NCBI RefSeq assembly: GCF_025602895.1
Contig: NW_026516220.1
Coordinates: 775,291 to 839,290 of the forward strand
Origin: Polychytrium aggregatum
Taxonomy: Eukaryota; Chytridiomycota; Chytridiomycetes; Polychytriales
Length of the DNA stretch: 64,000 bases
Direction of reading: 5' to 3'
Under the pieces are notes generated by a model that was not told the DNA's origin, ran no database searches, and worked only from the letters and a program-made list of their open reading frames with translations. The position numbers and the translations under genes are program-made. Below are positions 22,621 through 54,015 of the stretch, one piece after another (the stretch's first letter is position 1; every line of letters begins with the position of its first letter).

Positions 22621-22929
22621 GAGTCGGGCGCTCTGGTGGACGCCTTGCCAAGGCTCAACATTTGGCGGGCAGGGTGGATATCTGCGGAATGAATATAGGG
22701 GCTCTATGACGACCACAACGGAGGATGTTCTCGTCAATCGAGGGTCATCGAGAGTGGCGATGCTGAACCGAATCGCAGCCCCGAACCAGCCCATCACATG
22801 GTTGTGGCACGCGCTGTGGCTTGGGAATGGCTTCGCTGGCTTTGCCTCTTGCCCCATATCTTCTCGCCATTCGCCTCACCGCCCCCCTCTTCCCCATCAC
22901 CAGTCGCCTGTTCTCCCATCTCCTGCAGT

Positions 22930-24513
22930 ATGGCCAACAACCCCGTCGATCAGTCCGCCTCGGGTGCTGCTCTTGAGCAGCACGGTGTCGGCTTGCGTCC
23001 TGCACCAGACATCTTCACCATTGTGTGTTCCAACGACAGCTTCCAACTGGCCCTCGACCACACCACAACCAAGACCATGCTCCGAGTGTGCAAGCAGGTC
23101 CAGCCACTCCTGAGCTCCAAAGTAGCTGGCTTCCACGACTGGTGCCAGAAGGCAGGACTGTGCCGTCCGGACGGCCAGTTGATGATCCGCCTCACCATCA
23201 GCGACCAGATTGCCCTCTCGCTGCACAGCAAGGGCCAAGACACAGCCGGTATATCATGGGTTGTAGCTCTGGCCGACCAAGGCCATGCCGCTGCCTCGTA
23301 TCTCCTGGCCTGGGTTCTCCTTCTCGCGTCCATCGTCAAGCTGCCTTTGCCCGAGGTCGACTTCATTTCCAGACAGAAAGAATGCGCCCGCCATTTGGAA
23401 ACGGCCGCCAACGCCGGCCATTCCATGGCACAACTCCAGTTGGCCGACTGCTATTATAATGGCATCGGGGTCGACCGAGACCGTGCCAAAGCCTTTGAAA
23501 GCTACCGCAAGCTCGCAAACGACGGGATCCACCGGGCCCAAGTTGCCGTTGGTCGATACTATGCAGATGGCGAAGGTATCGATCAAGACTTCAACACAGC
23601 CATCGAGTGGTATTCCAAGGCTGCCGCCCAAGGAAGCGAAGATGGCCGGCTTCATGTCGTGTTCCTCCAAGGATGGTTCTCGCTCATCGGCCATGATGGT
23701 GTCGAACAGAACGATGTCGATGCCTTCAACCGCTGGCTGGAGGTCAGCAGCAAGTCCACTGACTCAGCTATCAGGTCCATTGCCACGCACATGGTCGGAT
23801 GGATGCACTACCTTGGCAGGGGTACCGTGCGAGACGAACAGAAGGGCGTCAAAATGATCCGAGACAGCAAGTCGATTGAGTTCCTTCTCGGAGAAGGGGA
23901 CGGCCTGACCGGCGGAGGTGACGGAGCGTTTATGTCGTTGGCCACCTCGGACTCGGCCATATCACGCAAGTTCTTTGGGCTGTGCCGACTGGGGTCCGAC
24001 CACGACTGGTTGTGCCAGCATCTGATGGCGCTGTGCCTGGTGCATGGATTTGGAACGACGAAGGACCAGGAAAAGGCCGTGGCCATCTTTGAGCAGCTCG
24101 CCAACGACGGCCGCAGCAGCAGCCAGTACTGGGTCGGCAAATGCTGGTGGGAGGGCTGGGGAGTGTCGGGAAGCTACTCGACGGCGTTTGAGTGGTTCAG
24201 CAAGTCGGCCGAGCAGGGCAGCTCGTACGGACAGTTCATGGCTGGTGTGTGCTACAAGATAGGACTCGGTGTCGATAAGGACAATGCTCGTGCTTTTGAG
24301 TGGCTCCGCGAGTCGGCCGAGCAGGGCAATCGATACGGACAATACTACCTCGGCAGCTGCTACAACAACGGCATCGGCATCGACAAGGACACTGACACGG
24401 CCGTGTTCTGGTATCGCAAGTCCGCAGACCAAAGCCACTACCTCGCTGTCAACGAGCTCAAGTCATTCGGCTTGTGGTCCTGGGCCTCGAGCAGGCAATC
24501 AGAAGCGCCTTGA
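22930..24513 (+). CDS. Sel1-like-repeat protein, intact, single exon
   Basis: This 527-aa protein has no TM segment. An N-terminal part (about 1-115) of unknown fold includes DIFTIVCSNDSFQLALDH and LSSKVAGFHDWCQKAGLC. At least six Sel1-type TPR units follow, for example LADCYYNGIGVDRDRAKAFE, GRYYADGEGIDQDFNTAIEW, VCYKIGLGVDKDNARAFEWL and SCYNNGIGIDKDTDTAVFWY. Sel1 repeats act as protein-interaction scaffolds; the partner is unknown. ATG 22930 is chosen because the aligned pseudogene copy at 37,440-39,036 begins similarly just upstream of the conserved DIFTI segment; frames upstream are Pro/Ser-rich and unconserved. No introns are needed. Confidence 0.88.
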   Translation: MANNPVDQSASGAALEQHGVGLRPAPDIFTIVCSNDSFQLALDHTTTKTMLRVCKQVQPLLSSKVAGFHDWCQKAGLCRPDGQLMIRLTISDQIALSLHSKGQDTAGISWVVALADQGHAAASYLLAWVLLLASIVKLPLPEVDFISRQKECARHLETAANAGHSMAQLQLADCYYNGIGVDRDRAKAFESYRKLANDGIHRAQVAVGRYYADGEGIDQDFNTAIEWYSKAAAQGSEDGRLHVVFLQGWFSLIGHDGVEQNDVDAFNRWLEVSSKSTDSAIRSIATHMVGWMHYLGRGTVRDEQKGVKMIRDSKSIEFLLGEGDGLTGGGDGAFMSLATSDSAISRKFFGLCRLGSDHDWLCQHLMALCLVHGFGTTKDQEKAVAIFEQLANDGRSSSQYWVGKCWWEGWGVSGSYSTAFEWFSKSAEQGSSYGQFMAGVCYKIGLGVDKDNARAFEWLRESAEQGNRYGQYYLGSCYNNGIGIDKDTDTAVFWYRKSADQSHYLAVNELKSFGLWSWASSRQSEAP

Positions 24514-25726: not shown

Positions 25727-28165
25727 ATGGAAGCCGCGACTCCAGCCCACCCCGACAAGCTCGTTCACTCCGAGTCGGCCGACACCACTGTCGAGCTCGA
25801 CAACCAGAACGACTATATCGACCGGGACGAGGATATTTCCAGCTACTCCTTGGAGGAGCGCCATCTCTTTCTGAAGCTGACCCGATATCTTGTCCCGTGG
25901 ATGTTCGTCATGTACTTTTTCTGCTACATTGATCGCGCAAATCTGTGTAAGTGCTGCTGGTTCTCGCGGCAGGACGATTGGTGGATGGGAGGATTAGCTT
26001 TGCTTGATCGCTGTCGTTGCCAGAAGCGGATCGCGCAGCTTTCGGCAGCGATCAAATCCGCTGCTTGCTGGCGGATCGTGCTCTGATCATGGTCTCCCCA
26101 TCTCCTCCTCGGCATAGCGAGCGCGCTGGTAATGAACAAGGAGACCGGTCACTCCCTCAAACAGATGGTCCTCTCCGACCAGGATGTCTCGATCGGTCTC
26201 GGACTCTTTTACCTGGGTATGTTATCCCGCATCTGTGAGCATGGGGGCATATGGTCTGAGGAAACAGGCCGGGTGCTGTCATGATGACGGCGGCCGAGGT
26301 TTCGATTGGCATACCGGCTGTCCGAAGCCGCTGGCGGGTGCTGGGGTGATCTTTCTCTGTGGCTCACTCTCCCACCGCACATCCAACCAACCGCACATCC
26401 AACCGCACACAGGCTACGTCATCTTTGAGATCCCCTCGAACTGGGTCCTCACCAAGGTCCGCCCCAGTCTCTGGTTCGCGCGGATCATGGTCAGCTGGGG
26501 CATTGTCCTTGGCTGCTTTGCCCTGATCTCCAAGAGTTGGCACTTTTTCCTCCTGCGGTTTCTGCTTGGGGCCACTGAAGCTGGGTAGGTGTACCTGCAG
26601 CGACGCAATGCGATGGCCGCCAATGCCTCTGCTGCATCGTGGCGACTGCATCCGAGTCTAACTGCTGGCCCTCGCAGTCTCTTCCCTGGCATGTCATACT
26701 ACATGACCCTCTGGTTCAAGCGGCGCGAGACGTCCACCGCCTATTCGGGCTGGTACATTGGCCTCCCGCTCGCCGGAATGGTCTCGGGCATCCTGGGCGC
26801 CGTGATCGGCAATATGGATGGGATCGGCAATCTGCGCGGATGGCAGTGGAACTTTCTTCTGCCGGCTATCCCGACCATTCTCATCGGCATTGCTGCGTAC
26901 TTTATCTTGGTGAGTTTTCGCAGTCGCTAGCTTGTTGCGATATATCGAGCGAGCAGCCTAGACTTGATAGGTGGCCTGTTCGTTATCAAGCACATCGACT
27001 ACTGTCTTTGGTTTGGCATTCACTGGCGGGTGGGTGCTGTTTGACGGCAGCCTCGGAGAAGGTCGCATGGACCGCTCGGAACGATGCAGACCCACACTCG
27101 GATCTTGTTTGGCTGACGCTTCGCTCTCGTTTACCAGCCCGACGAGCCCAGTCCAACATCAAGCAGCCTGCGCTACCGATTTTTGTCGACGGAGGAGCAC
27201 AAGATGGCCGAGTCCCGGATGGCTACCCGCAAGGCCCAGCTGCTGTCGGCGACCCACAATGCGCACAGTCTCAGGACGCTGTGGAGATCGATCTCGGATT
27301 GGAAGGTGAGCCCTCAGCTCGATTCCTGACAGATCTGTTGCCAGTCTCGCCGGGCCAGCATGGCAAGGAACATGATTGTCTGATATGTCGATGGTGGTTC
27401 ACTCGGCAGGTGATTTTCTTTGCGATTGTCTATCTCCCTGGGCTCGTCGCATCGACAAGCCTGGCGTACTACCTGCCTCTGTTTGTCAGCGGCCTCGGCT
27501 TCAGCTCTGTGTTAAGCCAGATCATGGCAGCGGCCGGCTGGATCTACGCTGCCATCCACATGGTCATCGCCGGTCGCATATCCGACAAGTTTGGTAGCCG
27601 CAGTCTACCCCTGGTCGTGAACATGATCCTGGCCAGCATTGGCTTTCTCGGAATGGGGCTTGGCGGCAATCTGTGGGTTCTGCGCTATGTGGCAGCATTC
27701 CTGGCCCTTGGCGGCACCAAGAGCGTCACGGCGATCTGCATGCCGGTAAGCACCGACATCTTGATGTGCACGTCAAAAGGCCGATGGCCGCTGTCTTGAG
27801 AGACGTTGCAAACCTGCTCTCAGCAGGTTCCGACCGAGTGGCCTCGACTGACTCTCTCCATGTTCCTCCCATGTTCTCTCGCGACTCAGTGGACAAGCAA
27901 CAATTTTGTCGCCCAGTTCGCTCCCGGTGCGATCGCAGCAGTCACCACGCTGGGCAACATCGGCAACATCGTGACGAGCTTTACGATCTTTTCGGCCTGG
28001 GCAGCCGATGCACAGAGGAACTATGAGTATTCGTGTGTGGTCGTCGCAGGGCTGATGTGGCTCTCTATCCTATCGACGGTATTCTTGCGTGTGTTCTTTA
28101 TCCGCGAGAACGGCAAGCCCAAGGGAGCCAAGACAGCCGAAGCGGTCGAGCGATACATTATATGA
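25727..28165 (+). CDS. MFS transporter, anion:cation symporter (allantoate permease/Dal5) family, 7 exons
   Basis: Exons 25727-25946, 26118-26216, 26413-26584, 26678-26909, 27138-27305, 27419-27745 and 27890-28165 give 497 aa, normal for 12-TM ACS transporters. After an acidic cytosolic N-terminus, TM1 reads YLVPWMFVMYFFCYIDRANL. Hallmarks are FEIPSNWVLTKVRPSLW, the RFLLGATEAG motif, LFPGMSYYMTLWFKRRE (the family's FPGM-YY-WF pattern), and in the second half WTSNNFVAQFAPGAIAAV and NIGNIVTSF. Members import small organic anions such as allantoate, nicotinate, pantothenate or dipeptides; the substrate cannot be read here. It lies 1.8 kb upstream of the Pls-type synthetase on the same strand, so a role in uptake or export for that pathway is possible but only inferred. 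Confidence 0.9.
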
Positions 28166-29610: not shown

Positions 29611-29737
29611 CGGGCGCTGCTGTGCCATGGGCACACTCCGCTGTTCGTTCCGTCCGTGTCGACGCTCTCCCGGTTGTCCCGCCGCTCCGACGTCCACCAC
29701 CCTCGCTCCTGCCCACCAACGGCCTCCTCCTCGAGCT

Positions 29738-29745
29738 ATAAATCG
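29738..29745 (+). promoter_or_regulatory. TATA box of the Pls-type synthetase gene
   Basis: TATAAATC lies 191 bp upstream of the ATG at 29929, with a pyrimidine-rich stretch between them. Position and match are good; function is inferred. Confidence 0.55.
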
Positions 29746-29928
29746 GTTCCTCCCCGAAGACCACCATGTCATCCCGTCCCTCGCCGAAGCTGCCAGTCTC
29801 CAGCAGCATTGCCATTTTCCCGTCCACGCTCTGGCTTCCGGCATCCCCTCGCTTCTTTACACCCCCATCGACGTTCCCACGGCTCTGTCCCCGTCGACCC
29901 TTGCTCCACCCTTCCCTCACTAGAGAGA

Positions 29929-32900
29929 ATGCTCTCAAAAAAGACCCTCGAGGCCGTCTCGGCCGTCACCGAGGACCTCAAGCGCCACGACTATGCCGCC
30001 TTCATCACCGTCGGCTTTGTCGCCGTCCTGGCCCGGTACTCCGACTCCATCGAGAACTACGACCTGCACTTCAGAATCGACAGCCGCCTCGCGAGCGCGC
30101 CCGTTGGCTCCAAGTGCACCGTCAATGTCACTCAGTCCTTCAGTCATATCCACCGCATGATTCTCGGCGTCCTGTTCACCAGCCATCCCTTGGACGAGAA
30201 TGAAAGCTGCAAGATCACCGTCGCCTGGTCCGAGACCGGCGACTTCCAGTCCAGGTTTGTGTCGCTCACCTTCTCCTCTGGAGACTTTGGATCAGGTATG
30301 TGGCCGTATTTATAACAGGCTTGTCGCTGGTGCCTTCCCACTATCTACCATCAATCCCACGCCACTGCTTGCCCCCCGTTACCACCGCCTACCACGACTA
30401 TCCGTCCCACACATCCTCCGGGCTGTACAACGCCACAAATGCATTCCTGACGCACTCGTCGCCCTTGTCTGTCGCCTCATGTCGAATCTGCATCTCCTTC
30501 ATCGACTGACCGGCTGCACTATCATCCTCTGTTCCTTCCAGGTTCCTCCGACTTTGTCGAGGAGATGATTGGTCTCGACTGTCAAATGGCTGGCTTTGCC
30601 GGCCTCTCCCCCGCCGAGATGGCGCTGGTCAACATCGAGGGCTCCGTCACGGCCTTCCTCGAGTCGCTGGCACAGCACCCCAACTTCCGCAAGATGCCCC
30701 TCGACAGCTTCAACGTCATCTGCCCCGAGGACTACCAGCGTCTGCTCGTTCTCAGCAACGCCAACAACCTCTCTCCTCAGCCGCCTCGCAAGAGCGACCA
30801 GTACCTGGCCAACATCTTTGTCCGCACCGTCCAGAAGCACCCGCGCATGCTGGCCCTGATCCACGAGACAAAGTCCATCACCTACGAGAAACTCTTCCAT
30901 CTGTCCAAGCTGATCGCCCAGCATCTCATCGAAAAGTGCGGCGTTCAGGCCAACGACCGCGTCGCCCTGATGTTCCCAAAGTCCATCGAGGGCTTTGCCA
31001 TCATGCTCGGTGTGATCCTCGCCGGCGCTGCCTATGTCCCCATCGACAACGAAAAGACCCCGCCCGAGCGTGCCGCCTACATCATCATGGACTCGGCCTC
31101 CAAGGTCTCTGTCATCGTCGACGACGCCCTCTGCGACAAGGTCTCGGCCGAACTCGACAAGCTCGGCGTCTCCGGCAGCACCATCCTCCTGACCGTGCCG
31201 GTTCTGTACTCTGCCGCCCGCGATCTCTTCATCTCCTCTGGCTCACAGAGCATCTCCATCACCATCGACGACCTCCCTGTCGACCGCAAGCCCTCCGATG
31301 GTGCCTACATCATCTACACCAGTGGAACGACGGGCAAGCCCAAGGGCGTGCTCATCAGCCAGGGCGCCATCGCCAACCTGGTGGTGGTCGAGCGCGATCT
31401 CTTCCAGCTGTCGCCCGGCGATCGTGTCTTCCAGAACTTTTCCCACAGCTTTGACTTTTCGATCGAGGAGATCTGGATGGCGTACTCGACAGGCGCCTCG
31501 CTGGTCATCCCGACCAAGGACATGATCTACGCCGGCCCCGATCTGCCCAAGCACATCCAAAAGTACAGCGTCACCGTGTTCTGCTGCGTCCCGAGCCAAC
31601 TCGGCATCCTCGTCGGCGAGATGCCCTCGGTCAAGATGATTGTGCTGGGCGGCGAGGCTGCCCAAGAAAATATTGTGCAGCGCTACCGAATGAGGGGCCG
31701 CAAGATCTTCAACACCTGTAAGTGCTGTTGTTGTGTGGAGTGGTGTGTGGAATGGTGCGGTGAACCTGGGGGCAACCAGAGTCCCGGTGAGACAGACGAT
31801 GCTCGATCTTCCACACATTCATCACATACTCATCACACACTCATCACACACTCATCACACACTCACCACACTTATCCCACTTGCGCTGCCCCAGACGGCC
31901 CCACCGAGACCACCTGCAGCTCCACCTACCTCGACATCTCCGAGCCTGTTGAGAAGATGACCATCGGCCGGCCCTTCATCAACTACACGTCGTACGTCGT
32001 CGACTCCAAGAACCGCCTGGTTCCCATCGGCGCCATGGGCGAGCTCGTCATCGGAGGCAAGAGTGTCGCCGAGGGCTACATCAACAGGTGCGTCCGACTA
32101 CTCGCCCCACGAACTGCTCTCGATTCTGCCCCTCGGCTCGCTGCTGCTTCCGTGGCGCTGACGCTGCATTCTCTCCCCATACAGAGACGACCTCACTGCC
32201 GAAAAGTTCATCCACAACCCCTTCGATCCCAGCGGACGCATGTACAAGACCAGCGATCTCGTCAGGTATGCTGTCGGTCTCGATCGTGTGCACCATCATT
32301 GCTCCAGCAAATGTGCCTGTCCCACTTGGCCCTGTCGAGGGTGGTACGCCTTGGCCATGACCGACACATCGCTATGAGCTCCGTGTCTCATCGACATGCC
32401 ATGATGTGTGCTCTGGTCCACAGATACACTCCCGAGGGCAACATCGAGTACTTTGGCCGCATCGACTGCCAGGTCAAGATCCGCGGCTTCCGCGTCGAGG
32501 TGAGCATCGCACGCTGTCCTGTCCATCCTGCCCGCACTGCTCGTCGATGATCGTCGATGATCGAGCCATGCCCATGCCGCGGTTGGCATGTCGATCCATC
32601 AACTTTGCATCACGGCACCGCACTCTGCGATTTCATCTTACTGACCCACTCTGGGGTTTCTCTCCCCTCGCTCCCCCCAGCTCGGTGAGATCGAGTCCAA
32701 TCTCTCGGATTGTGACGGAATCCAGAGCGCCATCGCTCACGTCTGGACCGCCCCGAACCCAGACACCGGCAGCACCGAGCAGACCCTCGTTGCCTATCTG
32801 GTGCTCGAGACCTGGTGCCACGAGATCGACGACCGCAAGATCCGCGAGAAGCTCCGTGCCACTCTGCCGCCGTACATGATCCCCTCGGTCTTCCAGCGCA

Positions 32901-33014
32901 TGCTCCCAGAGGACGTGCCGCGCCTGACCAGCGGCAAGATTGACCGCAAGAAGCTGCCTCCCATCATTGCTCCCGTGAGCACCGATAGAGGCATTGGTTC
33001 CGGCTCTGGCGCTG

Positions 33015-33045
<31 letters not shown>

Positions 33046-36000
33046 CTCCAGCCCGACCGCCGCTTCTGGCTCCGAGAAGCCTCGCCCCAAAAAGTCAGTC
33101 GATGGCCCAGAGCCCATGAATGGCTCGATGGAGGATGTCATCACTGCCGTCTGGAAGGACCTGCTGGGCAGCGATCGTATCGCCAAGACCGACAACTTTT
33201 TCCACGACCTTGGCGGACGTAAGTGCCCCACTCGGCTCGCTGTGACCGCCTTGCAATCATGTATGAGCGACGAGCAGAGTCTAATCATGGATCTCGTTCT
33301 ACTCCCCAGACTCGTTCCTTGCGGCCAAGACCATCGGTGCCCTGCGCAAGCATCCTCGACTGGCCGGACTCAGCGTCCGCGACCTCTACGAGAACCCCAC
33401 CATCGCCCAACTCGCCACTCTGGCCGCCCCCGCCCAGGCCGAGAACCGCACCGAGGAGCGCAAGAGCAGGCGCTTCAGCAGCATCAAGCGCACCGCCAAG
33501 GTCCACCGCCCTTCGCTTCCGGCCAAGGCATTCTGCGGCCTGATTCAAGCGTCGTTCTTGTATCTCTCGACCTTCTTCGGTGGCCTTCCTCTCTACCTGG
33601 GCATGTTCTATCTCTACAACTTCCAAACTACTATGGAGCTCTGGACTTGGCACTATGTGCTGATCACAGCCATTCTCTTCCTCCTCGTCACCTCGGTGGG
33701 TCGCATCTTTGCGATCATGTTTGTGGTTGTCCTCAAATGGCTCCTCCTCGGCCAGATGCGCGAGCGTTCCGTCCCCGTATACTCCTTCTTCTATCTCCGA
33801 TGGTGGATCGTCAAGACACTTTCTGGTAGCCTTGGTCTGACGGATCTTCAAGGCTCGTTCCTGCTCCCGTTCATCCTTCGTCTGCTGGGATGCAAGATTG
33901 GCCGTGACTGCAACATCTTCAGCATTAGCGTTGATGGATTTGATCTGATCGAGATTGGCCACGGATCCACCATCGGCAACAATGCCACGATCATCGCTTA
34001 CGAGTTTGCCAACGGATACGTGCACTTTAAGAAAATCAAGATTGGTGAGTGTCGCTGATGGAGGTTGTCAGTAGTGTGGTTGTTCTTGCCGTTGTTGGAT
34101 CTTTCAGCCGCACTCGGCCTGGGCGATGAAAGTGGTCTGCCAATGAGTCTGTGTTGGAGTCATCCCCGCATACGACCCAAACTATCACACTGACATCACT
34201 GCTCTCCCGTCTCAGGCGAAAACTGTGTCGTCGGAGCCAGCTCCGTTGTCGAGGCCGGCGGAATCATGAACGACGGCTCCGAGCTCATGGATTCGTCGCT
34301 CCTGTCGTGCAATGACGTTCTCGAGGCCAACCACTACTGGGGCGGCTGCCCCGGCCGCGACCGCGGCAAGAAGCAGCCCTCCGCCAAAGCCCGCTCGCTC
34401 TCCGACGGCAACTTCATCTATGTCTTCACCTACTCGATCTTGATGATCCTCGCGTGGTTTATGGCCCAGGTTTTCAAGGGCCTCACCTTCTACCCCGGCT
34501 TTACTCTGTACCTGTACGCCAGCTCGGTGTTTGGAACCAAGAACCTGATCTGGGCCTTTGCCCCTGCTGCGGCTCTGGTGTAAGTCGACAACGGCGATGC
34601 AGGTTTCTACTTTGGTCTGCAGCTGGTGTGAACCAGCGGCTGGCCCAGCATGCCACGTACATTCAAGCATGCGTTTCCATCACCGACATTGTCGCTGACT
34701 CTGTTTCCTCTGGACTTCCAGCAACATTCTGTTCTCGCTCTTCCTGGCCATCGTTCTCAAGTGGATCCTCCTCGGAAAGGTCAAGGCCGAGCGTATCCCG
34801 GTGGTGTCGTTCACCTACATCAAATACTATCTCTTTGATGCCTTTGTGAGTAGCTTGCATCGCCGTCGAGGATTCGGACTGCATCAGAAGGCTTGCTGTG
34901 TCCAGTGTCTTGTCTGCGATGCGATGCGATGCGATGCGATTTGCTCACATTCCTCTTGTCGATGGCCACTTTCTTCAAACGTAGTACCATGATATGCTGA
35001 CCTCCTTCAAGACCGTCTTCAACACCCAATATGTGGTTCCCTGGCTCCGCATGATGGGCTGCCGCTTGGGCAAGTTTTCCGAAGTGGCATTCTTCAGCCC
35101 GTTCCCTGGCGAGCTGCTGACGGTACGTTGTCCTTGACATGCAATCTTCTGCCACTCCGAGCCTGTTTGGCCATGCTCAGGACACTCACTGTGCGCTCTG
35201 ATGATTGTAGACCGGACAAGGATCCTTCATTGCCGATGCCGCCGTGATTGCTCCGCCCTACGTCTCGAACGGCTGGTACAGCACCGGACCCGTGCACATT
35301 GGCGACAAGAGCTTCGTTGGCAATGCGGCTGTTGCTCCCGCATACACACACATTGCCAGCGACTCGCTTCTGGGTATGTTTGTGGAAAGAATGGACAGAC
35401 GCATGCTGCACACTCCTGCTCGCTTTCGAGGCAAACGACATGATACTGCGTCGTATGGCTGCGTATCCTCCAGTCCTGCCTCGAAGCCTTCCTCGTGGCT
35501 CGTCGCTCTCGTACGGTGCAGCTCCGTGACTGACATAACCCCACCTGCATTGATCCGTGGCTCCAGGCGTCGCCTCCCTGCCGCCGAGATGCCCTCGTAA
35601 CCCTGAGGCTGGCGGATACTGCATCAATCAAGGCGAGACCTGGCTGGGCAACGAGGCTGTCCGCATCCCCTTCCGCAACAAGGACGGCAACGACCGCTTT
35701 GGCGATTCGTCGACCTACCAACCCTCATTTGCGATGAGACTGCATCGCTACATCTGGGGTGAGTGACAGTCTCAGTGCTGTATGATGATGATGAGTGTGT
35801 GTCGGTCTCGGTGGAGAACGTACTCGAGGCAGTGAGAGTTACTGCTTGCTGACTGGATCCTCCACGTATCCTGCAGAGGCCTTCCGTATCCTCGTTCCCT
35901 CTGCGATCTCGGCCGCCTTTGTTCTCTTCCAGCTTGAGTACTTTGCGCAAGGTTTCCTTGACAACTACCTGGACCATGTCCAGAAGATGGTTTTGTTCCC

Positions 36001-36712
36001 TGCCCTCGTCTGCTTGCTCGGTGTCTTTGAGCTCTTGCTGCTGATCGTGCTCAAGTGGATCTTGATTGGCCGCTACAAGAAGACGGAGCAGCCCATGTAC
36101 TCGACCTTTGTCCGCCGCACCGAGTTCCTCACGGGCATGCAGGAGCAGAATGTTGCGCCCTTCCTCGGGGCACTCATAGGTGAGTGCAGCAGACCGCACG
36201 ACTTGCATGCTTGATGTGCAGGCGGGGTTCAGAGGCAGGCGGGCGATGCGGTGGCCATGGCGCATCTTGGTGGCTTGAACTGCATGGATGTCAATGTCGG
36301 CCTGTTTCATTTGCTGACCTGTTGGTGATATACTCGGTTCCATCACGCAGGCACACCCTTCATGTCGATCGTCTTCCGCATGCTCGGCGCCCGGGTCGGC
36401 AAGAATGTCTTCTGGGCCACCGTTGACTTGACCGAGCACGACCTGCTGACGATTGGCGACAACTGCACCGTCGGCTCCTATGCAGTCTTCCAGACACATC
36501 TGTTCGAGGACCGCGTGATGAAGCTCGGCCCGATCGAGATCGGCAAGAACTGCAACATCCGCACCCGCACGATCGTGCTCTACGACGTGGCCATCGGCAA
36601 CGAAGTCGACGTCAACCCGCTCTCGCTCGTGGTCAAGGGCGAGAGTCTCCCCGACAAGACCACCTGGGAAGGCCTGCCGGTCCGCCACACCGACCGCCGT
36701 CTCCTATGCTAG
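29929..36712 (+). CDS. Pls/PosA-type NRPS: A-T plus three TM-pair/LbH modules (epsilon-poly-amino-acid synthetase-like), 14 exons
   Basis: Exons: 29929-30295, 30542-31717, 31895-32087, 32185-32265, 32424-32499, 32681-33218, 33310-34044, 34216-34579, 34722-34845, 34985-35122, 35211-35373, 35567-35758, 35877-36179, 36351-36712; 4,812 nt, 1,603 aa, all junctions in phase. Residues 1-195 look like the C-terminal lobe of a condensation domain with no HHxxxDG. The A domain (about 200-720) has TSGTTGKPKG, YGPTET and SGKIDRK. A Gly-Ser linker precedes the T domain, whose LGGHSF carries the phosphopantetheine Ser. Six TM helices follow in three pairs, the second of each pair ending VLKW(L/I)L(L/I)G, each pair leading to a soluble hexapeptide-repeat domain (IGHGSTIGNNATI, VHIGDKSFVGNAAV, IEIGKNCNIRTRTI). 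Bacterial Pls and fungal VibA of this design polymerise lysine through epsilon-amide bonds. Product here is inferred, not shown. Confidence 0.92.
32996..33053. repeat. Coding hexanucleotide repeat (GGCTCT)n making a Gly-Ser linker
   Basis: Within exon 6 of the Pls-type gene, GGCTCTGGCTCT-type units encode alternating Gly and Ser between the A domain (ending at SGKIDRKKLPP) and the T domain. Such a repeat can change length by slippage without breaking the frame. Confidence 0.9.
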
Positions 36713-36846
36713 AAGGCTTTGGCCACACCATTATCTACACTATTCCAATCGTTCACCCCCTCCCGTGAAAGATTTATAGACACCCATCGCGTGTAGTGCT
36801 CTGTTGTGCCAACTCTCCGTTATCAAGATACTCCTTGGTCGTCACA

Positions 36847-36974
36847 CACACCATCATTATCATCATTATCATCACAATCCTCATTATCATCATTATCATC
36901 ATTATCATCATTATCATCATTATCATCATTATCATCACAATCCTCATTATCACAATTATCACCACCATCATTAT
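36847..36974. repeat. (ATCATT)n-rich microsatellite downstream of the Pls-type gene
   Basis: About 128 bp of ATCATT/ATCACA units begin 135 bp after the stop codon. The surrounding 36713-37439 is otherwise AT-richer than the flanks and shows no gene. Confidence 0.92.
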
Positions 36975-37439
36975 GATCATCTCCGATAACGATCAGCCCA
37001 AAGTTCCCATTGTATCCAATCTTGCATTTTCCACCATATTTCGCATCCACATTCATGATTGCATTCGTCTATCTATCTCACTTCTTCATTTTACAATCTC
37101 TTCAAACATTTTTAGCCCCTCGTTCGGTCATTTGTTGGCTATTTTGCGAAGGTGGGTGTTGACCATCCCAAGCAACGAGGGCACAGCCCATTTGCATGTT
37201 TCTCTCACAATGGCTCTTGGCTTACAGCCCGGGCTACTCGCTAAATCTTGAATATAGCAGTGGAATGATAGCTCGTTGCTTGCATTCTCTGGTAAAATGT
37301 GGTCAAGGAGGATCTGGATGGTGCTGAGTCCTTCCACAATCTACTATTGTGAAGCTGGAATCGACGGACGAAAGTTGCATATGCCATTGTTGCTTCACGG
37401 AGTCATTCGATGTTTCTCTCGATCAGTCAAGATCAGCGA

Positions 37440-39036
37440 GTGTTTCGAGACAGCATTGCTGTGATCAGTTGCCGAGATTCTTGAGGAGACGGATGGAACC
37501 TACGTGACCCTGGTTGGCGGACTTGCGGTACCAGAAGATGGCGGCGTTGATGGTCCTCGGGGACACCACTGCCACCGTGGTAACAGAAGCTGAGCCACCA
37601 TTGTCCGATCCGATTGCCCTGCTCGGCAGATTTGCGATGCCACTCCACTGCCTTGGTGTGGTCCTCAGTGGTTCCGTATCCATGCTAGCCTGAACACCAA
37701 CCAACCATCCACTGCCCATATAAGTTGCCTAGGTCGGCCGACTTGCTGAACCACTCGAATGCCTTCTCGCATTCCTCTGATACTCCAAAGCCACTCAAGT
37801 AGCACACTCCGATCCAAAACTGACTGTCACTGTGGCCTTCGTTGGCGAGCTGCTCGAAGATGGCCGCTGCCATCGTACGGTCCACGGTAGTTCCAAATCC
37901 AAAGTACACACACACAGCGATGAGATGCTCGCACAACCAGTCACGGTCCGATCCCAGCTGGCACAACTGGAAGAACTTGCGGGCGACAAGCGAGTGTGAT
38001 GTGGCAGCCCAGTGGGAGGATGCCAGACACTCGGCTTCCCCAAGCGGGAATGCATTTGATCGATTATCGCGAATGATCTTGACACCTTTCTGCATGTCCT
38101 GGACAGTGCCGCGGCCAAGGTAGTGCATCCAGCCAACCATGTGGGTGGCGATGGGCTTGATGACTGGATCGTCGGATTGGGTGCTGACTTCCTGCCAGCG
38201 GTGGAACCATCGACATCGCTCTATTCGACACCATGGACGATGAACGAGAGCCAGCCACGGAGAAACACGATATGGAGTCGACCACCTTCGTTGCCCTGGT
38301 CGGCAGCCTTTGAGTACCACTCGATGGCTGTGTAATAATCTTGTTCGACACCTTCGCCATTCTCATAGCAGCATCAGAGAGCCGCTTGTGCCTGAGGGAG
38401 TTCAAGCTCTGTAAGCTCATGGTACAGCTCGAAGGCCGTGGTGTGGTCATGATCGATTCCAATTTTGTTGAGATAACACTAGGCCAGGTGGAACTGAGCC
38501 ATTGCGTGGTTTGTGTTGGCCGATGTTTCCAGATGGCGGAAGATTCGCTGACGAATGGCTCGCTGCTCGTACCATTTCATTCCTCCTTGGTCGAGATCGA
38601 CTTGGAGGATCCTTGAGAGGAAGTATGAAGCATAGGTGTTTCCTTGGTCCGCCTGAGCGACGAGCCAGGATCGGTCGGCTGAGCTTGGATTCGCGCAGTG
38701 CGGCGATAGGGCAATCTTGTCGCAGGGCGCAAGCCCGAACCAAAGGGACCCATCTGGATTGCACAGCTCTTCCTTCTGGCACCAGGTGTTGAATCGAGGC
38801 AGCTTGGAGCTCAGGAGAGGACGGGCTCGCTTGCACACTCGAAGGAGGGTCTTGATGGTGTTGTGATCGAGGGCAAGTTGGAAGCTGTCGTTGCAGCAGA
38901 TGATGGTGAAGATGTCTGGGTTGTGTTCGAGTGAGAGCTGGTTGATATTGGGCATTGACGAGGTCGATCTGGCCACAGCTTGGGTTTGGTGGGTGGCAGA
39001 TGCTGTAGTTGAAGCAGGCTCGTTCATGCTGGCCAT
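37440..39036 (-). pseudogene. Decayed Sel1-repeat gene, paralogue of the gene at 22,930-24,513
   Basis: The minus strand starts with ATG at 39036 (MASMNEPASTT) and matches the intact copy over its whole length: DIFTIICCNDSFQLALDHNT against DIFTIVCSNDSFQLALDHTT, and MAQFHLA against MAQLQLA. At 38481-38479 a TAG replaces the Asp codon after HLA. The matching reading then continues (CYLNKIGIDHDH), meets a TGA near 38388, and a TAG replaces the Gln of GVEQ near 38242. The C-terminal half survives in other frames (IATHMVGWMHYLGRGTVQD, then FEWFSKSADLGNLYGQ), with further frameshifts near 37690 and 37540. It is therefore a multi-lesion pseudogene, not an assembly slip. It lies between the Pls-type and A-T-R genes and is convergent with the former. 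Confidence 0.88.
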
Positions 39037-40359: not shown

Positions 40360-43300
40360 TCAGTTGCGGCCGGTGCGGGTGAAGATGCTGACTTCGGGAT
40401 ACTCGTCGTCCTTCAGCTCGCTCGACGGCTGGATGGGGTTGGGAAGGAAGTGGGCGTGGTTCAAGTAGCTGAGACACTTCTTGGCGATCAGTACAGTCGA
40501 GGGACAGGGTGTTGGGTAGATCGAGCGGGTGTTGGCGTTGTCGAGCTTGAAGGACATGTCCATCATCATGTGCATGAGCGGGGACAGGGCATTTTGGTCA
40601 AACAAGGGGTTGGTGGAAAGAATGTACTTGAACTTTTCACGAGTTTCAAAGAGGACGGGCCAGCCAAAGGAGTTGACGATCTCGAACAGCTTGGTCTCGG
40701 AGAGGACACTGCGGTGAGTGAGTGAGTGAGTGAGTGAGTGAGTGAGTGAGTGAGTGAGTGAGTGAGTGAGTGAGTGAGTGAGTAATCAGAGTCAGAATAC
40801 ACCATCCACACCACACCACATCGCACTTCACACCACATCACACACTCCTCACCTGTGCTCCGAGTCGCTGATGTGGAACACAAACTTAGACAGGGACTCC
40901 TCCGAGCCGGCAATCTCGGCAACCACCTTGGCGACATGGTCGACGGGATCCATGGTCAGGGTGACGGGAGTGGCATACGACGGAGCAACACCAAGTTGGA
41001 TGCATCCCTTGACATATCGCCAGATGTAGTCATCAGAGTTGGACACTGGAGCAATGGAGGGTGTGAAGGTGTCAGTTGGTGTCAGTTGGTGGATGAGTGC
41101 CACTTGACAATCGAGACCATCGATTCATGGCCAGTCCGTGGGAATGAATGAGACATCTCCACCACATCACATCTCCACCACACCACACCACATTCGACTC
41201 ACCTCCGTACTGGCTGTCGCCGGCAATGACGGCCGGGCGGATGATCGTCACCGGCACTCCCCTCGATCGTGCCTTGTTGATCAGCTGCTCAGAGACCCAC
41301 TTGGTCTGGCCATACCCGCCAGAGATGTTCCAGGCCGAGTAGATCTTCTCCTCGAGCGGCTTGTCTGCCTTCTTGGCCATCGGGATCGTGCCGATGGTCG
41401 AGATGTAGTGCAGCGGCTTCAGGTGGTGGGTTGTGGCCAGTCTCAGGGCCGTCGCCGTGCCGAGGACATTGGGTCCCTTGAGTCTGTCATAGTCAAACAG
41501 CCAGTGGACCTCGGCGCCGTTGTGGACAATCATGTCGGTCTCCTCGCTGATCTCCTTCCATCGCTCGTCCGAGAGTCCCCACTTGTCCTGCGACAGGTTG
41601 CCGCACAGTCCAACGAGTCGAGACTTGAGGCTGTGCTCAAGAAAGGCTCTCTGGTCCGGATCGAGGACCAACTTCTGAGCCGTGCTGATGATGCGCTCGA
41701 CAGCCTCCTGATCGTCCTTGGCTCGGACCAGGCAGTAGATCTTGGCCCGAGGGAACTTGTGGGCCAGCTCAAAGACCAGGAAGGCACCAAGGAAGCCAGT
41801 GGCACCGGTCAGGACGATGCCGCGAGGGTCCTTGGGATAGACAAACGGAGGAAGACCCTCGGTCGTCACACTCGCATCGTCGAGCTTGGCGGCCTCGGCA
41901 GCCAGATGGACGGTCGGGGGAATCATCGGTTTGTCGTCGAGGATGTCGACGACCAACTGGGCGACATCGAGCGGCGTCATTCCGTTCGACAGCAAGATCA
42001 TCGGTGAGATCTCAACATCCAGCTCGTCCTTGATGGCGAGAGCCAGACGGCCGACACTCAGCGAGTCAAAGCCGACACCGCCGATGTAGTAGTTGCGGCC
42101 GTCGAGGGCGGGGTTGTCGATGATCTGGCTGCCAAGTGTGGAGATCTTGGCGGCAGTGCGGGACAGGGGAGTGTTGACGATGTCAAGGGTTGGATAGATA
42201 ACCGACTCGCCAAAGTACTTGGCATGCTCGGCGAAACGCCTGAGCTTCTTGAGGTCGCGCTTGCCCGAGTCATTGAAGGGGAACTGGTAAAGTTCGAAGA
42301 CGTTGTGGATCGGGAACTTGGCGACGTTCTCGAGGGTAAATAGCTCCTCGGTGCGGCGGATCATCTCGCTGGGGGTTACTTTGAAGCCCGATCCCTTTCG
42401 AACGACGTAGAGCATCACGATCTCCTTCTCGGAGGTTTGGACAAAGGTGCAGTCTTTGATGGTATCAGGCATGTGCTTGTAAACCAGCTCCTCGAGGGCG
42501 TTGAGGTCGACATAGACGCCGTTGACCTTGATCTTCTGGTCGAATCTGGAGTGATGGTGTGGAGCGAGGGAGTGAGGGAATGGATGACGTGAGTACTCGG
42601 GATGCAGGAGTTGGATGTGTCCCCAGGATGTCAGATGTGCAGTCGCCATCAACGAGAGATGCAACGCCCGGCCGTCGACCTCACCTTCCAACCACAGTGA
42701 ACTGCTTCTCGTCAACCATCTCGACCCAGTCCATGGTGCAGACACGGGGCGAGCCATCCTCGAGGAAGCCAAATGTAGCAAGCTTGTTGTTCGGATCGAT
42801 GTTGGCAAAGCTCGGGTGGTGCTTTGCAAGATGATCCTTGTCGACGGCAAAGCCAAGCACGCCGCTCTTCGAGACCTTCTGGTCGACGATATTCCCCTCT
42901 TCGTCAAAGAGGATACAGCGCACACCGGGCTTCGCAAGTTTGTAAACCACTTTGTCTGGAACGAGTCCGTTACTGGCTGGCAAGAAGAACACCGAGACAG
43001 CACCAATCGTTCCCAACTGTCGGTAAAGCCGTGGTCAATGACAATCCAGGGTGACTAGCTGACAAGATGTTTATGTTAATCCTACCTCACTTGCTCCATA
43101 TATAATCTGAATATCGGCCTTTGGACAAACGTCTCTGGCCATTTTGACAACGTTTGCAGGAACAAGCTCGGAGCCCATAACGATTTTTCTCATCTCATTC
43201 CACTTGACTTTCGGGTTCTGAGTTCGAGCCACGCTGATGATCATCTTCATGAATGAGGGCGTCTGGGAAGAGTGTATCAAAGAGGAATAATCCATCAGCA

Positions 43301-47634: not shown

Positions 47635-50600
47635 TTAAGAAGGCTTCCTGCGAGGAGCCCTGCGTGTGCTCTTTATTTGGGGCTCCTCGAGGTGTTTACC
47701 GTATTTACTCAGCTCCTCGGGTGCATGGGACAAGTCCTCCAGTGTTTGCCATGTGTTGCCCGAGTGTGGGTAACCAACCCACTTGACATAAAACCGAAGT
47801 GACCCATCAGCCACTTTCTTGTGCCTCACGATCCTTTCGACTTCATATTCTTGAGTATAGTATTGTCCGAGGTCGTCTTCCAGTGGTGCGTCGTCCGGGA
47901 CACCTTCGTCGGCGTCGGGGAACTGTGCTGGACTGCGGGTCGTGTGGCGACGCAGCTTGGACACATGGAAGACAGGATGGAGCTTGCTTCCAGGTGGCAA
48001 GTCCAACAGGTAGTTGAGGGGACTGGGTCGGGCCGCTATCTTGAACGGTCCTCGGTACTTGGGCAACAACTTCTTTGACTGGGCTTCGGGGACCTTGATG
48101 TTGTCGGCGTCCAGGTAGACAAGGTCTCCAACTTCAAAGGAGACATCCTGGTGTCGGCGGTCGTAGTACTTCGCCATCACTTGTTGCGCATCCGTGAGCG
48201 CGTCGGCGATCATCTTGTGTCGGACTTGATGATCTTTGACAAAGGCACTTGGTTTGGGAGGCAATCCAGCCGTGGACTCGGTCAGTGTCAAGGAGGTGGG
48301 AACATCAGGCTGGAATCCGTAGAGCGCCTCAAAGGGGCTCAAGCCAGTTGTGCTCGACTTGGCGGTGTTGTATGCAAACTCTGCATGACTCAGCTGTATG
48401 TCCCAGTCGTCTTGGCTGGTCGAGGCGTATGTCCTCAGGTATTGCTCGAGGGTGCGGATCGTCCGCTCGGACTGTCCATCCGTTTGTTGGTGGTGCGAGG
48501 TTGACATGTTCAGCTTGGTGCCGAGATGGTCGAACAGACTTGTCCAAAACAAGGAGGTGAATCGGGGGTCTCGATCACTGACGATGGACTTTGGGAGGCC
48601 GTGGTGCTTGAACACATGCTTGAAGAACAGCAGTGCAAGGTCAGGCGCGGAGCATGTCGTCTGGCACGGCACAAAGTGTGCCATCTTGCTGAACCTGTCG
48701 ACAAAGACAGCGATTGCATCGTGGTCCAACTTGGTCGTCGGTAGATGCGTGATGAGATCCATGGACATGCTGGTCCAGGGGCGGTCGGGAACAGGCAGGG
48801 GTTGCAGCAATCCTTGCTCTCGGGTCGTGCGTGACTTGACCATCTTGCAGGTATGGCAGGACTCGATGTACTTCTCGACGGTGCGCTTCATTCCAGGCCA
48901 GTATGCGACTTTGGCCAGTCGGTCGTATGTCTTCTCGACTCCAAAGTGTCCAGCGAGGGGCGAGTCGTGGACCTCTTGGAGCAACTTGGTCTTCAACGAC
49001 GGAATGTCCGGCACACAGACACGGCTGTCCTTCTTCAGGAGGAGCAGGCCATCACGCACTGTGTACTCGGATGATTCGTCGTCCTTGGGGAGCTTAGACA
49101 CCTTTCGGAACAGTTCTCCGAACTGTTTGTCGTTGGCGATGTTGTCTCGGACAACATCCAGCATCGTGTTGTCGACACTGACAGTCGACTCGTACAGTGA
49201 CGCCAATTGGTAGTCGGGGCGTCGGGACAGTGCGTCAGGCACCACATTGAGTTTGCCTTTCTGGTATACAACCTCGTAGTTGTACTCGGCGAGGAACTCC
49301 ATCCATCGCGCTTGGCGTCGGCTCAGGTTCTTCTTGGTGTCGAGGTAACGCAGTGACTGGTGGTCCGTCACAATCTTGAAGGGCTTGGCGGTACCGTGGA
49401 GGTACACTCGGAACTTCTGCAGCGCGTAGATGATCGCAAGCTGCTCCTTCTCGTGCACGGGATAGTTGATCTCGTGTTGGGACAGTTTGCGCGACTCGAA
49501 GGCAACGGGCCTTCCCTCCTGCATCAAAACAGCTCCCACCGCAAAGTCGGAGGCGTCGGTGTGCACGGAGACATCCGTGTTCGGGTCGAACACAGCGAGG
49601 ACAGGAGCGTTCGTCAAGGCGTGCTTGAGGGTCTCGAACGCTTGGCGTTGTGGGTGGTCCCACACGAAGGGGCACTCTTTGCGGAGTAGGTCTGTGAGTG
49701 GACCGGCAGTGCGCGCCAGATCGGGGATGAATCGGCGGTAGTAGTTGACGAGACCGAGAAACGACTGCACGTCAGAGACGCATGCGAGCGGCGGCCACTC
49801 GACCACAGACTTGACCTTGGCGGGGTCGACTTCGATTCCTCTTCCTGAGACAACGTGTCCCAGGAACGGGACTTGATTCTTGAAGAACTCACACTTGGAC
49901 AGTTTGGCATACAACTTGTGCTCGCGTAGCTTGGCCAGCACGCGGGCGACATGACCTTCATGGGTCGCTTCATCCTTGCTGTACACAAGGATATCATCCA
50001 GGTACACGATGACAGAGTTGTCGAGCTCTTGGCGGAACACATCGTTCATCAGCTGCATGAACGTGGCAGGTGCGTTCGTCAATCCGAACGGCAGCACTAG
50101 GAACTCGTACAGTCCGTAGCGAGTCCTGAAGGCGGTCTTGTGGACATCATCCTCGTGGATGCGGATCTGATGGTAGCCTGAGCGGAGGTCTATCTTGCTA
50201 AAGACCTTTGCTCCACTCAGACGATCCATCAACTCGTCGATCCTGGGCAACGGGTAGGTGTTCTTGATGGTCTGTTTGTTTAGTGCGCGATAGTCGACGC
50301 ACATCCTGAGATCACCTTCTTTCTTCTTGACAAAGAGCACTGGTGCACCATACGGTGACTGGCTCGGGCGGATGAACCCATGGGCGAGGAGGTCATCCAA
50401 CTGGCGCTTGAGTTCGTCCATCTCCGTCAGCGACAGTTGGTACGTCGGTCTTGACGGAGGCGACGAGCCTGGTTCGATGTCGATGCGATGATCGACGGTG
50501 CGTTGGGGTGGCAGGCATTGTGGCAACTGGTCGGGGAATACGTCCTTGTACTCGTCGAGCAGCTTGGTCACCACAGGCGGGGGACCGGGACCGGCTTGGT

Positions 50601-51567
50601 CGGTGTCGTCGACCTCACGCACGACACAGAGGAACGACGTGTCCTTCTTGATCAGCCTCTTGAATTGCATGGCTGAGAGGAGAGGTGGCATGTTGGGTGA
50701 GGCCATGCCCTGCAGGACAATGTCAGGGCCAACACGGACAGTGCGGCCTTTCCAGTCGACGACTGGAGTCGGCTCGGCACGAGCAAGCCAGCTCATGCCG
50801 AGGATGGCATCGAACTTGGTGTCGATCACTTGGAACAACAGGACAGGATGGTACTTGGGATGGAGGGCCACTCGCAGGACCACTTGGTGTGTGCACTGCT
50901 GCACACGATCGTCTGCAAGCGCCACACTCATCGGCGACTTCTTCTTGGTTGCATGTATGTTGAGCTCCTGGAGCAAGCGTCTGCTGACAAAGTTGCAGCT
51001 TGCTCCAGAGTCCACCATCATTCGGACGGTGTGACCTTGGACGGTGGCAGGGAGGTACAGCAGGGACTCTTCATGGTCCTCCTGCACAGCCTCCTGCACC
51101 ATGACTTGACTTGGGGGAACGGGCGACACTTGGTCTTGGTTGGCTTCATCACGGCCACTCGGACATTTTGGATAGGGTTCGGCCATTGCGGGGGCCTGCG
51201 GCGTCAGCACGCCATTGCACACGACGTCCACGGCTTGCGGACACATGTCGGAAGCATCCGACACACACGACTTGACAGGGGTGAGGGCACAGGCGGTCCT
51301 GTCCCTCAAGGGTTCTTGATTTTCTTTTTTGTTTTGGTTTTCAATTTTGGTTTTCTCTTCACGTTCGTGGAGAGGCAGGCGGCTTGCGCCACCATGCACC
51401 TCTCGCACGACGCACAACACTTGGTTTGTTTCTCCTTCGGGGGAGGGGGCGAGGTGAACTTCCTCTGGAGACGCGTGGACTGCATTGAGCAATCCACGGC
51501 GTTGGTCTCCTACTAGGGCTCCAGAGCCACCTAGTAGGGTCGGCCGTTTCCCGACTTCATGGGGCAC
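47635..51567 (-). CDS. Element C pol: protease-RT-RNase H-integrase-chromodomain (intact)
   Basis: An uninterrupted 1,310-codon frame. Retropepsin with [10 protein letters not shown] (about residue 184). Reverse transcriptase with [32 protein letters not shown] and the catalytic [10 protein letters not shown] (about 523). RNase H with [14 protein letters not shown] and TDHQSLRYL. Integrase with the His-Cys zinc finger ([20 protein letters not shown]) and an Asp-Asp-Glu core ([31 protein letters not shown]). C-terminal chromodomain with [12 protein letters not shown] and FYVKWVGYP (about 1,246-1,300), which defines it as a chromovirus targeting chromatin. It has no own start needed: it is reached from gag by -1 frameshifting in the 37-nt overlap. 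No inactivating change was seen, so it may be recently active. Confidence 0.95.
51509..51552 (-). promoter_or_regulatory. -1 ribosomal frameshift signal of element C
   Basis: Minus strand, 5' to 3': GGGAAAC at 51552-51546, phased G-GGA-AAC in gag. A 7-nt spacer follows, then CCTACTAGG (51538-51530) and its perfect complement CCTAGTAGG (51517-51509) around a 12-nt loop. Gag stop TAG lies in the first arm. Pol is in the -1 frame and reads GGG-AAA through the site. Heptamer, spacing and stem match the classical design. Confidence 0.88.
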
Positions 51568-52191
51568 TCCTTGGCCTGGTGTCCCGGTCGGTGACAGAAG
51601 AAGCAGGAACCATGGCGGAGGTCCTCCTGCTTCTGTCTGTCCTTGGGGGAGACAGTGGCAGCTTGCTGGAACCGGGAGCGGGGAGGGCCACGAGCCTCCA
51701 TGGCGTTGACGTCAACGTCCATGGGCTCAGGCATGGGTCTTGCGGGCGGGGCCGGGCGAGGCGGACGGGCTGGGACGTGATGAGACCGATGGCCGCCTGC
51801 CAGCTGCGGGTAGAACTGGCGGCCATGGTACTGGACGTTGTCGAGGTTCTCGGCAACGTCCATCATCACGTCCAGGGACTTGCGGGCATCAGGGTTGCTG
51901 GCGATGTACTCTCTGATCTTGGGCTTGAGGCCCTTCTGGAAGAGGTACATCGCATCAGCAGAGCCCAGCTCCTCAATCTGGGAGGAGAGGTCTTCAAACT
52001 CCTCGATGTAGCGGGTCACAGAACCACGCTGCACGAGAGAGTATAGCTTGTCACGGGCAATGAGTTCAGCATTGGGGCTGCCGAAGCGGCGACGGAGGCG
52101 GTCCTTGAAGTCGTCAAACACACCTTCGCTCTGCTCGTCGAACCCTTGGCGGCGGTACCAACGGTACGCCTGGTCCTTTAAGCAGAGCTTG
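51531..52191 (-). CDS. Element C gag, 5'-truncated
   Basis: The frame is open from the element-A junction at 52191 to the stop at 51531, about 219 codons. It contains the capsid-type segment [13 protein letters not shown] ... [13 protein letters not shown] ... [20 protein letters not shown] and a CCHC zinc knuckle [14 protein letters not shown] that binds the element RNA. The N-terminal part of the capsid is missing with the rest of the 5' end. The last codons read SGNGRPY-stop and contain the frameshift signal. Confidence 0.88.
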
Positions 52192-52860: not shown

Positions 52861-52977
52861 GAACGGATCTTTGCTTCCCTCGCTCCCTCTCCGAGTCCAC
52901 TTCGGACTCTACCCTTGCTTTCCCTGAGCTCACTTCGAGCTCACTTCTTCTTTTGCCGTTGAGTCCCCTTTGGACTC
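52834..52977 (+). other. Series of four mini-hairpins in the element-A leader
   Basis: GTCTC/GAGAC (52834-52848), GAGTCC/GGACTC (52893-52909), GAGCTC/GAGCTC (52926-52942) and GAGTCC/GGACTC (52961-52977). Each has perfect arms of 5-6 bp and a 5-nt loop of the kind ATTTC, ACTTC, ACTTC, CCTTT. They lie between the AATAAA signal and the gag start, where packaging or dimerisation signals would be expected. Confidence 0.75.
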
Positions 52978-53053
52978 TAACATCATTTTGAACGCTCCCT
53001 CTTGGCTTCCCGGCCTTTCTTCTTCTTTCGCCTCTCTTTCCCTCGTCGATCCG

Positions 53054-54007: not shown

Positions 54008-54015
54008 GCGAGGTG
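53971..54015 (+). promoter_or_regulatory. -1 ribosomal frameshift signal of element A
   Basis: GGGAAAT at 53971-53977, phased G-GGA-AAT in gag. After 16 nt (with a small GCTC/GAGC stem) comes CACCTCGC (53994-54001), loop AAGTAA holding the gag stop TAA, and the perfect complement GCGAGGTG (54008-54015). The -1 frame enters the pol frame without a stop. Confidence 0.8.

Follow-up and report, generated by a model that had tools for sequence, protein, structure and literature searches.

The cationic homo-poly(amino acid) (CHPA) synthetases of the Pls/PosA family recognize their monomer in the pocket of an adenylation (A) domain. In the sections of PMC10522769 on which we draw, pocket positions 1 (Asp) and 3 (Glu) are reported to be essential, and position 2 is a size gauge, with Ala for lysine, Met for ornithine, and Phe for 2,3-diaminopropionate (Dap) or 2,4-diaminobutyrate (Dab). 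The M218A mutation of PosA raised the efficiency for Lys nearly ten-fold, so size matters at this position (same sections), and the Pls pocket also employs a Ser and a Thr (PMC11253843, in part). CHPA synthetase homologues are known from several fungal genera and other eukaryotes (PMC10522769, section 10). The synthetase of the fungus Epichloe is Epls (PMC7179176, in part), which is 51% identical to Pls of Streptomyces albulus (section 2.2 of that paper). Here we analyzed a window of 64,000 nucleotides (the whole stretch of DNA, from contig NW_026516220.1) of the zoosporic fungus Polychytrium aggregatum (Chytridiomycota; assembly of 64.7 Mb in 418 contigs). The gene at 29929..36712 probably encodes a membrane CHPA synthetase of the Pls/PosA kind that works by the family mechanism, and its copies in the genome seem to have been reshaped by gene conversion.

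Removal of 13 introns, all 13 of them GT-AG, yields a spliced frame of 4,812 bases for 1,603 residues and a stop, in agreement with the 14 exons in one frame of a preliminary description of this DNA. The sister copy on contig C335, cut at the homologous junctions, is residue for residue identical to P0001 (BJ171DRAFT_585221, 1,597 aa), which is a deposited gene model and not RNA evidence; a P. aggregatum sister copy is thus already in public databases, labelled 'uncharacterized protein'. Two copies (C356/C367) are missing intron 13 and their frame continues through, which supports this junction. The elements of the gene are as follows, in window coordinates.

29929..36712 (+): whole gene, 14 exons in a single frame
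29929-30295, 30542-31717, 31895-32087, 32185-32265, 32424-32499, 32681-33218, 33310-34044 (+): exons 1-7
34216-34579, 34722-34845, 34985-35122, 35211-35373, 35567-35758, 35877-36179, 36351-36712 (+): exons 8-14
29929..30597 (+): orphan N-terminal cassette, aa 1-141, of two types among the copies (N1 and N2; 50-51% aa identity)
30820..32962 (+): A domain, aa 216-725 (PF00501, E 1e-73; PF13193; TIGR01733, 381.9 bits with a cut-off of 317.4)
31453..31467 (+): start of the substrate pocket, aa 427-431 (D, F,.,., E)
32252..32254 (+): aa 602 in motif A7, Ser in the window copy (TSD for TGD)
32963..33127 (+): Gly-Ser-rich linker between the A and carrier domains, its length differing among copies
33137..33419 (+): thiolation (T, carrier) domain, aa 784-847, with attachment Ser812 in GGHS (PF00550, E 1e-8)
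33516..34370 (+): unit 1, transmembrane (TM) pair aa 880-956 and beta-helix 1005-1107
34413..35670 (+): unit 2, TM pair aa 1122-1194 and beta-helix 1244-1353
35728..36688 (+): unit 3, TM pair aa 1373-1445 and beta-helix 1498-1596
36491..36523 (+): QTHLFEDRVMK motif, aa 1531-1541 (including His1533); the motif varies little or not at all across the family

The protein is composed of an N-terminal region (~205 residues), the A domain, the T domain, and three units of a TM pair and a beta-helix. Pfam matches above cut-off are AMP-binding (216-576), AMP-binding_C (634-717) and PP-binding (784-847), and the C-terminal half (residues 907-1594) matches TIGR02353 (Pls/PosA) with 473.5 bits against a curated cut-off of 423.1 (E 1e-141). 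No condensation or thioesterase domain was found among seven Pfam families at E 1e-3. The three units were mapped from the AlphaFold2 structure of the sister copy P0002 (pLDDT 87), in which helix pairs are predicted at 421-455/465-497, 663-701/704-734, and 912-945/955-984, each followed by a beta-helix. Both the domain order and the family assignment of the preliminary description are therefore borne out, and its placing of the gene in a zoosporic fungus was correct. Hydropathy (threshold 1.6) detected five of the six helices in the window protein (TM1 was missed) and flagged part of the A domain too, and only three of six in C356; it is weaker than AlphaFold2.

The mechanism is proposed by analogy with Pls, PosA and PDAPs, from general knowledge of their chemistry and from parts of PMC10522769 and PMC4668381. 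The A domain would adenylate a diamino acid, which would then be loaded on Ser812. The membrane-embedded beta-helix assembly would join the side-chain amine to the carboxyl group iteratively, without a condensation or thioesterase domain, and the QTHLFEDRVMK motif with His1533 is a candidate catalytic site. The isopeptide polycation would be released outward with no thioesterase, and would probably be antimicrobial.

Relatives were collected by a protein search with region 870-1603, in which 8,000 candidates were scored and 467 matched at E 1e-3. Among the best 120 of these 467, the named ones are bacterial apart from two Polychytrium proteins, and no other fungus is named; the polymerase identity to 118 relatives is 29-38%. 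Fifteen listed records of a plasmid collection align over 87% of P0001, through A, T and polymerase, at 31-33%. Leaving aside the Polychytrium one, the proteins listed by the protein search that are 1,270 aa or longer are hereafter called the 112 relatives. Some Pls/PosA-type proteins of ~1,740 aa (P0040, P0043, P0070, and others) carry an extra PF04235 and a DGES-type pocket; P0043 and P0104 among them are named as Akkermansiaceae.

In an alignment of 125 proteins, the pocket code DFECVGTCSK is identical in all eight copies of the gene. The same alignment returned DMEHNGTVSK for Acinetobacter baumannii PosA, which is its published code, and DSECYGGVTK for a Novosphingobium protein, the code printed for a Bdellovibrionales protein. 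Pocket columns 5 and 6 were set one residue over after published codes (positions 1-4 and 7-10 are unaffected), one lysine-type pocket residue was located by its spacing from D213, and L104 (S. cattleyicolor) was excluded from the pocket and neighbour counts because its senseless code indicates a broken or wrong frame. The acidic pair D427/E431 at positions 1 and 3, as for a diamino acid, is alike in all 112 relatives. Position 2 is Phe428, the residue of the poly-Dab/poly-Dap type, in place of the ornithine-type Met, and the lysine-type Ala and Ser at positions 2 and 4 are replaced by Phe428 and Cys470. The 'epsilon' (lysine) product of the preliminary description is thus not supported. Thr514 is retained; its counterpart in both PosA and Pls touches the amine of the side chain.

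Four of the five named loci with a DFEC pocket adjoin a Dab transaminase and/or aspartokinase gene: L103 by annotation, L025 with both genes over cut-off, L102 with an aspartokinase, and L032 with a partial Dab-transaminase match below cut-off. L102 and L103 are close relatives and therefore not independent. Neither gene was present in two open reading frames (ORFs) tested at the fifth, L023. At loci with other pockets, neither gene is listed within about 2 kb (L106 and L107) or was found in the two and one ORFs tested (L022 and L024, respectively). The comparison left out L105 (no annotation) and the DFEC relatives P0077, P0084, P0090, and P0094. No monomer supply gene was found near the window synthetase.

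The gene lies on eight contigs in four pairs (C90/C226, C369/C335, C382/C35, and C356/C367). Because identity within each pair is 98.9-100% across the gene and the short flanks fetched, the copies apparently represent four loci on two haplotypes each. Between loci, the A-domain cassette including its introns is about 97-99% identical, with synonymous divergence (dS) of at most 0.08. For C90 and C356, dS is 0.887 over aa 1-141, 0.077 over 142-725, 0.246 over the linker and T domain, and 0.955 over 851-1603. Their introns 2-6 are 98.9-100% identical and introns 7-12 only 53-63%. Protein-level selection cannot explain this pattern, as the introns show the same jump. Two tracts of high identity are as follows.

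30595..33424 (+): high-identity tract shared by C90 and C356, which are diverged elsewhere (of 2,747 aligned sites, 106 are mismatched)
30595..36681 (+): tract of about 99% identity between C90 and C382, with the diverged exon 1 and downstream flank outside

Tract scores in the three comparisons were 2001 (C90/C356), 5318, and 2353, against null maxima of 99.5, 384.9, and 109.5 in 300 site permutations. The C90/C356 tract is uneven. Three 100-base bins of exon 2 (30700, 31200, and 31400) are at 77-91%, lowest at 31200 (77%), the linker near 33000 is diverged, and another high-identity patch covers 33200-33400. The best-scoring C90/C382 tract (30616-36687) has 20 mismatches in 6,049 sites; exon 1 is only 66.5% identical, and past 36681 the two copies diverge again, C382 having a different, longer C-terminal tail. 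C382 shares the second N-terminal type with C356 (90.1% aa identity). C90 and C369 have 29693-36813 and a 203-base piece (37054-37256) in common, and their remaining flanks differ. With two polymerase types (P1 and P2), the combinations are N1-A-P1 (C90 and C369), N2-A-P1 (C382), and N2-A-P2 (C356). The boundaries of identity between loci are sharp, with breakpoints at 30594/30595, about 32980, and 36681/36682, and on these comparisons the mosaic reflects cassette exchange or ectopic gene conversion. Ectopic conversion would have copied the A-domain cassette and so left the four loci with almost one A domain, while two N-terminal and two polymerase types persist. The flanks fetched differ among all four loci and so give no sign of a conserved gene cluster.

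Of 67 polymerase positions with a conservation of 97% or more among the 112 relatives, the window protein retains 57, QTHLFEDRVMK included. The relatives keep at least 62 (losing at most 5), although the same relatives defined the set. Nine of the ten departures are common to both chytrid polymerase types (window and C356), which are 68.7% identical. Between the polymerase exons of C90 and C356, dS is 0.955 and nonsynonymous divergence (dN) is 0.232, giving dN/dS of 0.24. These values show purifying selection between old copies, so the gene is not a product of chance, as the preliminary description had argued from its exons. With dS near 0.95 and this ratio, the changes in the polymerase are old and maintained, and they are most simply read as those of a polymerase that has changed and still works.

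The two chytrid proteins have a branch to themselves in a 114-row tree, with a length of 1.56 changes per column. No donor was identified, and the tree sister P0014 was flagged as a long-branch join. The enzyme belongs to a known family, in which it is a divergent eukaryotic member with a long branch of its own. Its presence in a fungus is less surprising than the preliminary description would have it, because section 10 of PMC10522769 already records homologues from fungi of several genera, as well as from eukaryotes outside the fungi. We found no literature on Polychytrium and nonribosomal peptides or on such systems in chytrids, though the eukaryotes in Supplementary Table 2 of PMC10522769 may include Polychytrium. 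In per-domain BLASTP, the A domain scored best with the Pls family (361 bits; median of 118, 313) ahead of nonribosomal peptide synthetases (NRPS; best 328, median of 118, 258). An origin from an ordinary fungal NRPS is therefore disfavoured, the first impression in its favour having summed modules per protein. However, when the chytrid A domain was grouped with those of six NRPS rows, an approximately unbiased (AU) test did not reject the grouping (p 0.444; LG+G4, 37 rows), so its origin is not settled; in the A-domain tree the NRPS rows form one clade (99).

The genome has five further loci (L108-L112) on two contigs each (C386/C387, C79/C94, C107/C112, C113/C383, and C102/C124). Their frames are 644-870 aa long and reach 133-192 bits with TIGR02353 in the four scanned (cut-off 423.1). 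They form a second, diverged polymerase class, with 51-59% identity to L111 but only about 22% to the polymerase of the window gene. L111 has a FadD-like ligase exon (76 bits), and ligase- and carrier-like exons were seen by eye at other loci. Derivation of the window polymerase from this class was rejected, as its best score is 102 bits with the second class (four compared) and 404 bits with CHPA relatives (eight compared). On C417 (L019 and L020), two A-domain matches ~10 kb apart, with condensation-domain matches beside them, are possibly tandem multidomain NRPS genes.

Several observations weigh against an active CHPA synthetase for a short diamino acid. The window pocket code occurs in none of the 112 relatives (as read before columns 5 and 6 were moved), and Cys at position 8 is unique, with Val or Ile in all 112. 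The chytrid A domain falls outside the Phe clade in the A-domain tree, though uniting it with Phe-pocket rows was not rejected by AU tests (p 0.153 with 15 Phe rows and 0.295 with 8); for the polymerase such a union was rejected (p 0.011), and there the 8 Phe rows themselves are not one clade. With exons scored singly, so that split genes score low, the best genomic match to TIGR00709 (Dab transaminase) is 74.1 bits against a cut-off of 401.6, and TIGR03944 (SbnB) has no match over cut-off. The polymerase is changed at 10 of 67 near-invariant positions, recent copies show higher dN/dS (0.81 for the C90/C382 polymerase and 0.38 for C90/C369, on few changes), and the window copy has Ser602 where Gly is invariant in the relatives. 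Part of this would suit an enzyme of the same kind that polymerizes lysine or ornithine (an epsilon-poly-lysine synthetase or one for delta-poly-ornithine), the pocket rule failing for so distant an A domain, and we regard that as a serious minority possibility. Lysine and ornithine are available in cells without special supply genes, and the Dab/Dap supply families are not over cut-off; the position outside the Phe clade and the retained Thr514 also fit. Such a substrate is hard to reconcile, however, with Phe instead of Ala (Lys) or Met (Orn) at position 2, with Cys instead of the Ser of Pls at position 4, and with the M218A effect in PosA. The pocket, set against the absent supply-gene matches, favours a short diamino acid and disfavours lysine without settling the matter. 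Dab or Dap is the most likely monomer, a tentative choice, followed by ornithine, which is rather doubtful, and lysine, which is improbable.

The other alternatives concern what the changed protein does, or whether the mosaic is real. The enzyme may be a repurposed relative that loads an amino acid and passes it on, one residue at a time or in short chains, to an acceptor at the membrane (a lipid or wall polymer), with no free homopolymer. The beta-helix units have an acyltransferase-like fold (PMC10522769, section 13), the shared departures in both polymerase types are as for a changed but maintained function, and the same genome holds the five loci of divergent polymerase-like frames, L111 beside its ligase exon. 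Yet the other 57 near-invariant positions and QTHLFEDRVMK are retained and the window polymerase is far nearer to CHPA relatives than to the second class, so that we consider repurposing quite unlikely. Decay of the window copy, with Ser602 harming motif A7 and only other loci active, is very improbable. Ser602 does occupy a position that is Gly in all 112 relatives, and it is found in four of eight copies, the other four having Gly; but these four are both contigs of the C90 and C382 loci, and all eight copies keep open frames, the pocket, Ser812, and His1533. That chimeric contigs rather than gene conversion produced the mosaic is scarcely credible. It was read from contigs without read depth, but at every locus the two contigs have their match boundaries in the same places, over eight contigs that agree at 98.9-100% within pairs. 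Returning to the CHPA synthetase, a bolder version is speculative and on balance unlikely: a chytrid-specific recombining polycation-synthetase family, in which conversion keeps one A cassette near-uniform and combines it with two N-terminal and two polymerase types, would turn one monomer into at least two polymer forms (differing in length, linkage, or destination) of the short-side-chain, poly-Dab/poly-Dap type, by a polymerase altered at sites fixed in relatives.

The preliminary description was silent on the about 205 residues before the A domain. The first 202 have no Pfam match at E 1, and P0001 residues 1-205 matched only P0001 itself at E 10 among 1,538 scored candidates. Eight of the 112 relatives (P0005, P0016, P0022, P0027, P0072, P0076, P0078, and P0101) have an extension of similar length (~200 aa) before the A domain, which is a worn condensation C-lobe (hhalign E 7e-12). 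The chytrid N-terminus has no convincing match to these extensions (E 0.015, probability 3%) or to the condensation C-lobe (E 0.045, probability 1%), with negative controls at E 0.12 and 0.66. A reading of the N-terminus as a condensation-domain remnant is therefore not supported; its position fits a C-lobe, but the profile match is unconvincing and the protein search brought up nothing besides P0001.

Around the synthetase, the window contains the following.

22699-24507 (+) and 37436-38362 (-): Sel1-repeat genes flanking the synthetase
26579-27793 (+): upstream frame on the same strand resembling the major facilitator superfamily (31.7 bits, cut-off 33.4), a possible exporter
about 36850-36985: simple repeat rich in catcatta units, directly past the gene
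41078-43054 (-): NRPS-like gene of A, T, and reductase domains ~5 kb downstream, with a thioester-reductase domain (NAD_binding_4, E 9e-55) and, by eye, an A-domain end and carrier site
47641-58888: at least two Ty3/gypsy-type chromodomain retroelements (frames)

If active, the synthetase would mean that a polycation of bacterial style is made in an early-diverging zoosporic fungus, by an enzyme lineage that is apparently distinct from Epls of the ascomycetes. The copies also show that, within one eukaryotic genome, gene conversion can act by cassette on the A domain of a synthetase together with its introns. The mosaic is a natural experiment, since near-identical A domains sit on polymerases of 68-69% identity, on which part of the enzyme sets the chain length.

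Compared with known systems, the enzyme shares with PosA and the Pls/PosA family (PMC10522769, in part) the A-T-(TM pair + beta-helix)x3 order, the acidic pocket pair, and QTHLFEDRVMK, and its polymerase is 30% identical to that of PosA. It differs in the Phe (not Met) at position 2, the ~205-aa N-terminus, 13 introns, and the ten changed near-invariant positions. The eight Pls-like proteins with a ~200-aa extension resemble it in having sequence before the A domain, and that sequence is not convincingly theirs. Epls is fungal and has the same domain order but a lysine-type pocket. The preliminary description had named VibA as the fungal synthetase, but VibA is an NDT80/PhoG-type transcription factor (PMC7179176, in part), and no such domain was found among seven Pfam families. 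Given the 51% identity of Epls to S. albulus Pls, one would expect any sister of Epls to lie much closer to the Streptomyces enzymes than the chytrid protein does to its relatives; the window protein is far from every one compared, a set without Epls and the full S. albulus Pls. PDAPs of S. albulus PD-1 (PMC4668381, in part) and PddA (PMC8225329, in part), which are of the beta-poly-Dap/gamma-poly-Dab type, have Phe at position 2 as in the chytrid, and the DFEC start of the code is common to the chytrid and to loci of actinobacteria that have a Dab-transaminase or aspartokinase gene next to them. Beyond these four letters the code differs, and the chytrid lies outside the poly-Dab/poly-Dap clade in trees that did not include PDAPs and PddA. 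In the parts of the family literature consulted, we met no eukaryotic poly-Dab or poly-Dap producer. What is new here is the recombining set of copies at four loci; in other respects the gene is an intron-rich eukaryotic variant and not a new kind of system.

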